DNA from: Tautonia plasticadhaerens
GTDB taxonomy: Bacteria > Planctomycetota > Planctomycetia > Isosphaerales > Isosphaeraceae
Direction: 5' to 3'
Assembly: GCF_007752535.1 (NCBI RefSeq)
Contig: NZ_CP036426.1
Coordinates: forward strand, 8,432,001 to 8,496,000
DNA: 64,000 bases
Under the pieces are notes generated by a model. It made no database searches. It was not told the DNA's origin and was given only the letters and a program-made list of their open reading frames with translations. Below, piece by piece: positions 10,406 to 13,588 of the stretch (position 1 is its first letter; each line of letters begins with the position of its first letter). Position numbers and translations under genes: made by a program.

Positions 10406-10506
10406 GGCCGGTGCGCCGGGGAGCGGGACCGCGACGTTCGCCACAACCAACGACCGACCAAGAGCTTTCGGAGTTCAGGACGGCTCTGAATTGGGTTCGC
10501 TCCGTC
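10406..10506. repeat. 101-bp element, copy 1
   Basis: The left end is GGCCGGTGCGCC and the right end is TGGGTTCGCTCCGTC, exactly 86 bp from start to start. The interior is AT-richer and only weakly conserved: a TCGCC.CAACC-like block in the middle and a TTTC block at offset 60. Confidence 0.85.
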
Positions 10507-10597
10507 GGACCCGCGTCGCGACCGGGGTCTCCCGTCGGCGTCGGGGCCTCCCGGCCGGTCGGGCAGCCCCGACGGGGCCTCGGGGGGAGGCGTCGGC

Positions 10598-10698
10598 GGC
10601 CGGTGCGCCGACGAGGCGTCCCGGTCGTTTCGACGCAAACGTTTGCGATGCAAGAATTTTCCCCACTTCGCCCGGCCGCGAAATGGGTTCGCTCCGTC
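10598..10698. repeat. 101-bp element, copy 2
   Basis: It has the same two ends, the same 86-bp end-to-end offset and the same total length as copy 1. The interior has diverged, with TTTCGACGCAAAC at the position of the central block and TTTC again at offset 60. Confidence 0.85.
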
Positions 10699-10816
10699 TC
10701 GTCATCGCGTCGAGGCCGGGGAGGGCCGGCTCGGCGAACGGGCGGGCGGATCCGTCGGGCCTGAGGCCCGGCGCCCCGGCAGTCGGGGGAGGGTCCGGGA
10801 TCCCGGCGAGGGGCGG

Positions 10817-10917
10817 GGCCGGTGCGCCACCGGTCCGTCGAGCTGCGATCGCCGCAACCTTTTTCGAGAAAACGGTTTTCGCGGAATCTATGGTGCCGAG
10901 AATGGGTTCGCTCCGTC
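10817..10917. repeat. 101-bp element, copy 3
   Basis: It has the same ends and exactly the same length as the other two copies. The interior contains GATCGCCGCAACC and then T- and A-rich runs. TTTC is again at offset 60, and AATGGG precedes the right core as in copy 2. Confidence 0.85.
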
Positions 10918-11257
10918 GTCGTCTTGGTCGGAATCGGCTTCGATTCGCGCCGGGGGATCTCGGAGGGCCGACCCGAGGTCGGGGGATCGTCGGGGAGGGG
11001 GCGAGGATGTTCGCCCCGATCGGATTGCCAACGAGCGGGTCGGAGGGCCGAGGGCATCCTGGGGAAACCCCGGGATCTTCTGGACGGGGGACGGCGTCCT
11101 TCGGACGACGACCCCATGACAAGATCATCGGGGAAAGGCCGTCCGGCAGTCACACGAAATGGGAGGATCGGGGGGACGGGGCTGAGCGTGACGGGCCGAG
11201 ACGCCCCGCGATGGCCCGTCCCGGCCCGGATCCGACCCATCCGGGGAGGAAGACGGG

Positions 11258-11854
11258 TCAGGAGTCCGGTCGCCCGAGCAGGTGCTCGACGACGGCGTCG
11301 GCGAAGGCGTCGAGGTCGGGAGGGATCAGCAGGCCGAGGTCCCGGTGGGTGCCGTCGGGGGCCCGGCCGCGGAGGACGGCCCCGGGGGAGTCGGGCCCGA
11401 GCGGGGGGGTCTTCTCCAGGGTGAGGTACCGGGCGGGAGGGGGAGTGTCGGGGGGACGCACGGGGTCGAGGGCCTCGGGATCCACGGCCACCGCGAAGGC
11501 GGCGAAGTAGGCCCCGGGGGGCTGCTCGGGCTCCGGCAGGCGGATCAGGGCGACGACGAACCCGTCGAGGCGGAAGGCCCGGACGGAAAAGGCGTCGGGC
11601 CCCGGCTCGGGGGAGTCGTGCCCGGGGTCGACCCGCTCCCGGACGAAGTCCCAGAAGTCGCGCAGGGTGTCGCCGGCGTCCTCCCGGCCGAGCATGGCGA
11701 GGGAGACGAGCGGGTCGTGGAAGAGCAGGTCCGGCAGGGCCCGGCGGGCGAAGACGTGGGGGAGGAGGTGCCGGGGATCCCCCTCGGGGCCCCACGGGCC
11801 GGCCTCGTCCTCATCGTCGTCGAGCAAGGGGCCGAGGTCGTCGTCGGTGGCCAT
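11258..11854 (-). CDS. Hypothetical acidic protein
   Basis: The protein is 198 aa with an acidic start (MATDDDLGPLLDDDEDEAG) and no signal peptide or membrane helix. The central segment (DAFSVRAFRLDGFVVALIRLPEPEQPPGAYFAAFAVAV) looks like a compact alpha/beta domain. I do not recognise the family. It is transcribed convergently towards the repeat region and divergently from the ECF sigma gene at 12089. Codon usage fits a real gene. Confidence 0.7.
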   Translation of the reverse strand: MATDDDLGPLLDDDEDEAGPWGPEGDPRHLLPHVFARRALPDLLFHDPLVSLAMLGREDAGDTLRDFWDFVRERVDPGHDSPEPGPDAFSVRAFRLDGFVVALIRLPEPEQPPGAYFAAFAVAVDPEALDPVRPPDTPPPARYLTLEKTPPLGPDSPGAVLRGRAPDGTHRDLGLLIPPDLDAFADAVVEHLLGRPDS

Positions 11855-12088
11855 CGGTCGGGATCCTCGGGCCTTCGGCGCCGGGAGCGGGGGGCGGGTC
11901 GCGATGGGGCCCCCCCGATTCGGAGCCTATCCGGGCCGACCTCCCGGGGCAATCTCGGGCCGTCCGGGCCGGTGCGTCCCGGCATCGTCCGCCGGGCGAA
12001 CCGGAATTTCCTGTATTGGTCGGGGCGTGGCCGGGCAGGATGGGGTGGAGGCTCGTCGTCGGCCGATCGGGACGGGGGGAGATGCGGC

Positions 12089-13588
12089 ATGGGACATCCG
12101 AGGCTCGGCGCCGGGGTGATGGACCCCTTGCGGGCGATCTTCGAGGGCGGGGCGGCCGGCCCGGGGTCGGACCTCGAGCTGCTGGACCGGGCGGCCCTCG
12201 GGGGGGAGCGGGGGGCGTCGGCCTTCGGGACCCTGGTGGAGCGGCACCGGCCGATGGTCGTCCGCGCCTGCCTGGGGATCCTGGGCAACCAGCACGCCGC
12301 CGAGGACGCGGCGCAGGTGACGTTCCTCGTGCTGGCGAGGCGGGCGGGGACGCTCCGCGGGGGGGAGACGATCGCCCCCTGGCTGTACGGGGTGGCGGCC
12401 CGGGTGTCGCGCAAGATGCGGGTGGGGGCGGCCCGGCGTTCGAGGCACGAGCGGATCGGCGCGGCCCGTCGGGGGGAGCGGCTGGAGCCCCCGGACCCGG
12501 GCGACGACACCGGCCCGGCGGTGCTGGAGGAGGTCGCCCGCCTGCCGGAGAAGGAGCGGGCGCCGGTGGTCCTCTGCTACTTCGAGGGGCTCTCGCACGA
12601 GGAGGCCGCCCGACGGCTCGGCTGGCCGGTGGGGACGGTCCGGGGCCGCATGGCGAGGGCCCGGGACCGGCTCCGGGGTCGCCTGGCCCGCCGGGGCCTG
12701 GAGCCGTCGGCCGGGGTGCTGGCCGGGGCACTGCCCGGGATGCCGGCCGGGGTGTCGGCCTCGTCGACCTGGATCGAATCGACGGTCTCCGCCGCGATGC
12801 GGATCGCGGAGCGGGGCCCGGGCGCGGCCGGGGCGGTCCCGGGGGCGCTCTCGGACGCGGCGAAGGCCACATTGAGGGGGATGATCATGACCAATGCCAG
12901 GATGATCGGGACGTTCGTTCTCGTCTCGACGATGGTCGTGGGAGGCGCGGCTGGGCTGGCGCAGTTCGGGGGCGTCGGACGCCCGGCGGAGCCCGGAAGC
13001 CCTCAAGGGGGGGCTGGGACCCAGAAGACCAAGGCCGAACCCGAGGGGGGGGTGGCCCCCGAATCCCGGCGGAAGACGTCGGGCGCGATGGGATCCCGGG
13101 GCATGATGGAGGGCATGCAGATGGGAGCCGGGGGCATGATGGAGGGCATGATGGGGTACGGGCCTGGCCCGGCCCAATCCGACTCGTTCGGCGGCGGTGG
13201 CGGGCTCGGCTTCGGCGGGGAGGAATCGCCCACCTCGATCCATAGCGAGATCTACGATATCCTCGACGAGGATGGGGACGACCCCGACGCCATCGACTCG
13301 CTCGTCGAGGTCGCCGTGATGGACGCGGCCCTGGCGAAGCGGCAGTATGAAGCCGTGGTCGCCGAGCTGATGGAAGACGCGAAGTCGACCGACCCCACCG
13401 AGGTCAATCCGCTCTACCGGGCGGTCCGGGAGGAGTATGTCAACGCCCTCGAGGAACTGGCCTCGATCCGGGCCCTGTTGAAGGAGCGGGGCTATTCTCC
13501 CGAGGATCTGCCCGAGATGCCGAAGCTCGAGATCGAGCCGACCGGAAGGGGACAGGACGTCCCAGCGGCCGACGGCTCCCCGTTCTGA
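12089..13588 (+). CDS. ECF sigma factor with membrane-spanning Met-rich C-terminal extension
   Basis: The protein is 499 aa. Region sigma-2 spans about 40-110 ([17 protein letters not shown]) and sigma-4 about 150-200 ([40 protein letters not shown]). It should redirect RNA polymerase to a stress or envelope regulon. Beyond residue 230 there is a long extension: one hydrophobic helix near 272-292, a Met/Gly-rich stretch near 333-358 with MMEGMQMG and MMEGMMGYG, and an acidic helical C-terminus. Such extensions are typical of planctomycete ECF groups and may couple sigma activity to the membrane without a separate anti-sigma factor; that is inference. The start follows GGGGGGAG. Confidence 0.88.
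   Translation: MGHPRLGAGVMDPLRAIFEGGAAGPGSDLELLDRAALGGERGASAFGTLVERHRPMVVRACLGILGNQHAAEDAAQVTFLVLARRAGTLRGGETIAPWLYGVAARVSRKMRVGAARRSRHERIGAARRGERLEPPDPGDDTGPAVLEEVARLPEKERAPVVLCYFEGLSHEEAARRLGWPVGTVRGRMARARDRLRGRLARRGLEPSAGVLAGALPGMPAGVSASSTWIESTVSAAMRIAERGPGAAGAVPGALSDAAKATLRGMIMTNARMIGTFVLVSTMVVGGAAGLAQFGGVGRPAEPGSPQGGAGTQKTKAEPEGGVAPESRRKTSGAMGSRGMMEGMQMGAGGMMEGMMGYGPGPAQSDSFGGGGGLGFGGEESPTSIHSEIYDILDEDGDDPDAIDSLVEVAVMDAALAKRQYEAVVAELMEDAKSTDPTEVNPLYRAVREEYVNALEELASIRALLKERGYSPEDLPEMPKLEIEPTGRGQDVPAADGSPF

Follow-up and report, generated by a model that had tools for sequence, protein, structure and literature searches.

The three 101-bp direct repeats described in the window (the whole stretch of 64,000 nucleotides that was analysed, C1:8432001-8496000) are a piece of a larger unit, which reaches at least to position 11165. 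On balance, the sequence argues for a dispersed, non-coding, polar unit, in which a promoter and a boxA would send an untranslated transcript through helically phased protein-binding modules. Read from right to left, the unit consists of an element C, a boxA (in about half of the units) and one to three modules, each built of a B box, an AT-rich core and one or more A boxes (Table 1). At least 97 of these modules are spread over about 80 intergenic loci of the Tautonia plasticadhaerens genome, both chromosomal and plasmid-borne, and three Tautonia congeners have the same module family. The assembly counts 9,395,224 bases in 6 contigs; the published ElP genome of this species has one chromosome and five plasmids (PMC7716859). 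The family amounts to about 80 non-coding loci per Tautonia genome, each with short motifs in helical step; these loci are apparently transcribed, often by way of the antitermination signal that normally serves rRNA.

In the proposed mechanism, RNA polymerase would start at C. The boxA would load a Nus-type antitermination complex, with which the polymerase would continue across about 0.6 kb of untranslated sequence. A sequence-specific protein would occupy the A and B boxes, all on the same face of the double helix, forming a multi-site nucleoprotein structure. The event useful to the cell would be either the transcript itself or the passage of polymerase through the protein-covered array.

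Table 1. Parts of the unit in the window (window positions).
Feature	Position	Strand	Description
Module 1	10406..10506	+	A box GGTGCGC 10410-10416, variable AT-rich core, B box GGGTTCGCTCCG 10493-10504
Module 2	10598..10698	+	A box 10602-10608, core, B box 10685-10696
Module 3	10817..10917	+	A box 10821-10827, core, B box 10904-10915
Element D, boxA-like sequence GCTCGTTGGCAATCCG	11021..11036	-	Between C and array
Element C, promoter-like	11113..11165	-	GTGACT 11153-11148, 18 bp, GATGAT 11129-11124
Predicted untranslated transcript	10406..11117	-	C, boxA, then three modules; deduced from the order and orientation of the parts

Genes in the window were called with a simple home-made codon-usage model, trained on the window itself. 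The genes neighbouring the array have no Pfam match. An open frame on the plus strand (11282-13588) appears, by eye, to encode a sigma-70-like (ECF) protein at about 12080-13588; its first part overlaps a minus-strand gene (11258-11854) and is probably not coding.

Repeats and helical phasing of the modules

The three copies noted in the original prediction are real: all begin with GGCCGGTGCGCC and end with TGGGTTCGCTCCGTC, the two motifs starting 86 bp apart, and all carry TTTC at offset 60. Allowing two mismatches, TGGGTTCGCTCCGTC has 3 sites in the window, a number reached by 0 of 100 shuffles; GGCCGGTGCGCC, at one mismatch or fewer, is not significant alone in the window. Genome-wide, GGGTTCGCTCCGTC has 37 exact copies versus 0 for the reversed control. 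When both end motifs are required together, 12 places are found in the genome, with total lengths of 89, 99, 100 and 101. The exact length that had been claimed thus holds within the window locus and is lost genome-wide, as the same two ends occur elsewhere at other lengths. The minus-strand frame starting with TERT is not a gene, since a reading frame would not survive repeat spacings of 22-24, 31-34 and 44 bp. A coding array was rejected for the same reason, the box spacings breaking the frame.

Selection on spacing, which had also been proposed, is strongly supported by a quantisation in steps of 11 bp. The distances from the nearest A box (GGTGCGC) to the B box (GGSTTCGNTYCG) fall at 59-61, 70-72, 81-83, 92-94 and 102-105, i.e., near 60, 71, 82, 93 and 104 bp (Rayleigh Z = 108.5 at 11.0 bp for 137 modules, with one distance per module), and this phasing is replicated in the three congeners (Z = 15.0, 33 modules). 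B boxes follow each other at 22-25, 31-33 and 44 bp, and A boxes occur in runs at 10-12 bp. The same step governs the distances between modules, from 147 to 275 bp (mean Z = 15.3, n = 51, best period 11.1), for which one spacing per locus was taken so that duplications were not counted twice. Looping measured in vivo puts one turn of negatively supercoiled bacterial DNA at about 11 bp (PMC8501960); the site spacing is hence quantised at the in vivo helical repeat, as in a helically phased multi-site protein array.

The A box nearly equals B read on the opposite strand (CGGTGCG / CGGAGCG), so that a single protein could recognise both. Neither the D-to-C nor the B-to-D distances are phased, which places C and boxA outside the helical assembly. 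Leftovers of 11-bp tandem copies could explain the runs of A boxes, but not easily the spacings of B boxes and modules. Among the three candidates originally listed (a small RNA family, a protein-binding array or a short mobile element), the protein-binding array is the best fit.

Module interior and the possibility of an RNA product

Aligned on B, the core is AT-rich, with a G+C of about 0.50 versus 0.68 for whole arrays, and contains a weak dyad: CGCAA at -40 and TTGCG at -16 from B. This dyad (-40 to -12 from B) was discarded as a hairpin, its pairing showing no excess over column-shuffled controls. The RNAalifold consensus consists of 8 A-B pairs with 0 compensatory changes, and the fold energies equal those of dinucleotide shuffles on both strands (mean z-scores of about -0.2 to -0.4). 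With dyad pairing, consensus folding and fold energies all at control level, there is no sign of a conserved RNA fold; a search of Rfam 15 revealed no family at the gathering threshold or at E up to 1. The small structured RNA was accordingly abandoned, for lack of both a conserved structure with compensatory changes and a match to a described family, although the array is probably transcribed. The original prediction was to fall if a genome-wide search found no other copies and no covariation, or copies of freely varying length. The outcome is split: other copies exist, covariation is absent, and the length varies only in helical steps.

Recombination sites of the attC type were considered because of the fixed ends and the variable interior, and dropped, as no such cores or cassettes were seen. 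Only some of the copies have an inverted A box after B; the palindromic or terminal inverted repeats shared by every copy of a REP/BIME or MITE-type mobile repeat are thus lacking.

A product consisting of the RNA itself is rather doubtful. It would be a long, repeat-containing non-coding RNA, expressed with the aid of boxA as CRISPR arrays are, whose A', B' and core motifs would serve as sites for an RNA-binding protein or for pairing with another nucleic acid. The 11-nt register would then come from the geometry of A-form RNA, A-form helices having about 11 bp per turn as well. The promoter-like element and boxA both point into the array, and the ends A and B are mutually complementary, as the 8 consensus pairs reflect. 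However, the folding and Rfam results given above speak against such a product, and a single-stranded RNA would hardly account for a phasing that is maintained from module to module across about 200 bp.

Element C, boxA and predicted direction of transcription

A BLAST comparison of the window with its own genus revealed a second conserved stretch, at about 11106-11182. This element C recurs as a pattern downstream of other arrays on the same strand: it sits 90-400 bp past the last B box, in fixed orientation, in nearly every array. A profile was built from 22 sequences, which came from about 20 of the same units that were then counted. It scored >5 downstream and on the same strand for 40 of 46 arrays; searching the opposite side or strand as a control gave 1 such score in ~138. 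Some of the misses are loci that had been fetched too short, the element being found later (L059/L157, L060/L140).

Two boxes of C are invariant, ATCG and the TCA of CAGTCAC, 20 bp apart. Read leftward, C becomes GTGACT-N18-GATNNT and resembles a sigma-70 promoter, in which the -10-like GATNNT and the -35-like GTGACT each match the consensus at about 4/6 positions. A standard consensus promoter scan detected no promoter in this region of the window. The fetched stretch contains no B box for 15 of the 80 unique C elements, and in 9 of these 15 a leftward gene starts 89-232 bp from C. Array-less C elements lie 89-272 bp ahead of leftward genes from several families, including paralogous ones, in three species. 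Together with the sigma-70-like reading, this position makes leftward transcription, into the array, the likelier direction. In the window, the putative promoter would start transcription near 11117 on the minus strand.

Improbable, by comparison, is a rightward reading of C, with the array providing enhancer-like activator sites. The array would then lie on the upstream side of C, and phased upstream sites are typical of activation by looping. Yet boxA points leftward in all 18 perfect matches whose coordinates were compared, leftward genes follow the array-less C elements, and the right-hand genes have no bias to start toward C. C as a rightward promoter of the ECF type was rejected on the same array-less elements and on a misfit of the box spacing.

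A multi-copy protein family was noticed after array-less C elements at L132, L156, L168, L129 and L150 (G000) and at L185, L186, L195 and L210 (congeners). Most members possess a SRHNARLHGLTA-like N-terminal stretch, and no Pfam or PHROGs match was obtained where tested. At L153, L172 and L212, proteins start 142-168 bp behind an array-less C, with a C-terminal DUF433 (Pfam) in L153 and L172. Pfam and PHROGs searches of the genes behind array-less C elements returned DUF433, a laminin-G-like match and nothing else.

The motif between C and the array, D, reads leftward as GCTC-NTTGGCAA-NCCG. In the window, its TCGTTGGCAATCCG is one position off the TCTTTGGCAATCCG of this genome's 16S rRNA leaders. 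In each of the three rRNA operons, either TCTTTGGCAATCCG or TCTTTGACAATCCG is present at two places, some 470 bp ahead of 16S and past 16S toward 23S; the pattern TCTTTG[GA]CAATCCG likewise precedes 16S and recurs between the 16S and 23S genes. In E. coli, both of these rRNA genes have a boxA upstream to which NusB/S10 binds, and the gamma-proteobacterial boxA consensus is GYTCTTTAANA (PMC5725501).

A boxA of the rRNA type, downstream of the promoter-like element and on the strand predicted to be transcribed, was found with a PWM within 200 nt of C in 29/65 array units, including that of the window. The far side gave 0/65 and the other strand 1/65. Perfect matches number 29 genome-wide, of which 6 belong to rRNA and 18, assigned by comparison of coordinates, to C/array units on the predicted strand; that of the window spans 11021-11034. 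A pattern with one mismatch allowed performed hardly better than the control. Units with boxA prefer the first C sequence class (22/34 vs 7/31, Fisher p = 0.001), and their neighbours are convergent in 14 cases and divergent in 1, versus 4 and 13 for units without it. The 36/65 units lacking boxA mostly belong to the second C class and lie between divergent genes. Because of this absence, one mechanism may not cover all units, and those without boxA may work differently.

The excess of convergent neighbours around boxA units would also suit a termination or insulation device between genes, e.g., phased Rho-loading sites or a protein roadblock, as would the C elements that abut the stop codon of the right-hand gene. 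Such a role is nevertheless unlikely: a terminator placed behind its own promoter and antitermination signal would be odd, Rho has no need of long invariant boxes, no intrinsic terminators were found in the window array, and the orientation of flanking genes is even overall (16/24/20/19).

Distribution, conservation and known systems

Profile searches recovered at least 93 C elements and at least 97 modules in T. plasticadhaerens, and at least 46 and 40, 34 and 43, and 3 and 73, respectively, in the three congeners; these counts are lower bounds, the best 97 module and 129 C candidates having been scored per genome. In 41 other genomes of the family, almost no C elements or modules are present among the matches listed. 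No signal related to replication orientation emerged: with dnaA at C1:436, the strands of the units are about even in both halves (23/23 and 21/17). The unit density is mildly higher near the origin (KS p = 0.011, for a list that includes array-less C elements). A search of the open-access literature turned up no account of these repeats.

In contigs C1, C7, C15, C21, C24 and C33 of genome G040, several C elements are situated only 260-920 bp away from the end of the contig, as though long repeats in the arrays had broken the assembly. Locus L105 (C1:7641800-7645800) has two C elements 1260 bp apart in similar surroundings, as if a segment had been duplicated. At L053, a long near-perfect inverted repeat, CCCGCTGATGCTTTCCGG ... 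CCGGAAAGCATCAGCGGG, is located at about 1170-1280, between the array and boxA.

Matching the flanking proteins between species identified the orthologous loci L169/L191/L213, L118/L206, L126/L214 and L157/L201, in species sharing about 70-90% protein identity. At each of them, arrays are present with the motifs and the phasing kept and with different modules: the number of modules, the box variants and the interiors turn over, while position and architecture stay constant. Such retention despite turnover would be expected of a protein-binding cis element under selection. A functionless, non-autonomous mobile repeat of the REP/MITE kind, with a periodicity left from an ancestral 11-bp tandem duplication, would fit the many copies in a single genus, plasmids included, and the runs of A boxes, but is very hard to reconcile with orthologous arrays that keep motifs and 11-bp steps while their interiors diverge, with the same polar order relative to C throughout, with the linkage to boxA and with the absence of any match to the unit in the phages and plasmids searched. 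The mobile element of the original prediction is likewise not supported, given these orthologous arrays, the lack of a coding gene in the unit and the absence of hits in the phages and plasmids searched.

The preferred unit, a promoter and boxA reading into a phased protein-binding array, resembles the leader of an rRNA operon, with a promoter-like element, then the genome's own rRNA boxA, then a long untranslated region. It differs by the absence of rRNA, by the presence of boxA in only part of the units and by its repeated, phased modules; moreover, the rRNA promoter (TTGACT / TACTAT, by eye) has boxes different from those of C. CRISPR arrays with boxA leaders have been reported (Stringer et al., as cited in PMC7862264) and share with the Tautonia units a non-coding tandem array, a fixed sequence around variable interiors and a boxA ahead. 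The repeats nonetheless lack the form of a CRISPR array: instead of near-identical repeats of 20-50 nt, evenly separated by spacers of similar length and unrelated sequence, the conserved boxes measure 7-15 bp at a module spacing of about 147-275 bp, and a consensus dyad is common to the interiors.

Like REP/BIME, ERIC and similar repeats, the units are short, intergenic, present in tens of copies and partly situated between convergent genes; unlike them, they are polar, with a promoter-like element and boxA, helically phased and devoid of a conserved hairpin. Plasmid iterons and ParR-type 11-bp repeats are direct repeats in helical register beside an AT-rich stretch, as are the modules. The Tautonia loci, in contrast, are dispersed (about 80), contain no replication or partition gene and carry different box types at each end of the module.

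Antitermination by boxA has been described for rRNA, for CRISPR arrays and for a few mRNAs. Its signal is present here at dozens of non-coding loci of a single genome, so that other bacterial needs for long untranslated transcripts become testable. As a sequence record of the helical repeat in living cells, and of a DNA complex with multiple sites, the 11-bp quantisation is unusually clean: it extends over about 200 bp and across species, even as their sequences diverge. The phylum in which it is seen is noted for unusual cell organisation. Tentatively, the some 80 dispersed promoter-boxA-array units might even constitute an undescribed class of bacterial chromosomal loci, in which antiterminated transcription through a phased protein array serves nucleoid architecture or marks domain boundaries. 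If true, the Tautonia units would be transcription-coupled architectural elements rather than genes.

Outside the genus, two loci of G022 (same family, other genus), L049 and L043, have long arrays in which GGGTTCGGTTCG-type motifs are spaced by 22-24 and 46-48 bp, along with repeated longer segments. At L049, where GGSTTCG motifs recur at these distances, Z reaches 56 of 72 at 11.4-11.5 bp, a value uncorrected for duplication. No convincing boxA was seen at L043 and L049; these long arrays are possibly a distant relative of the Tautonia module family.
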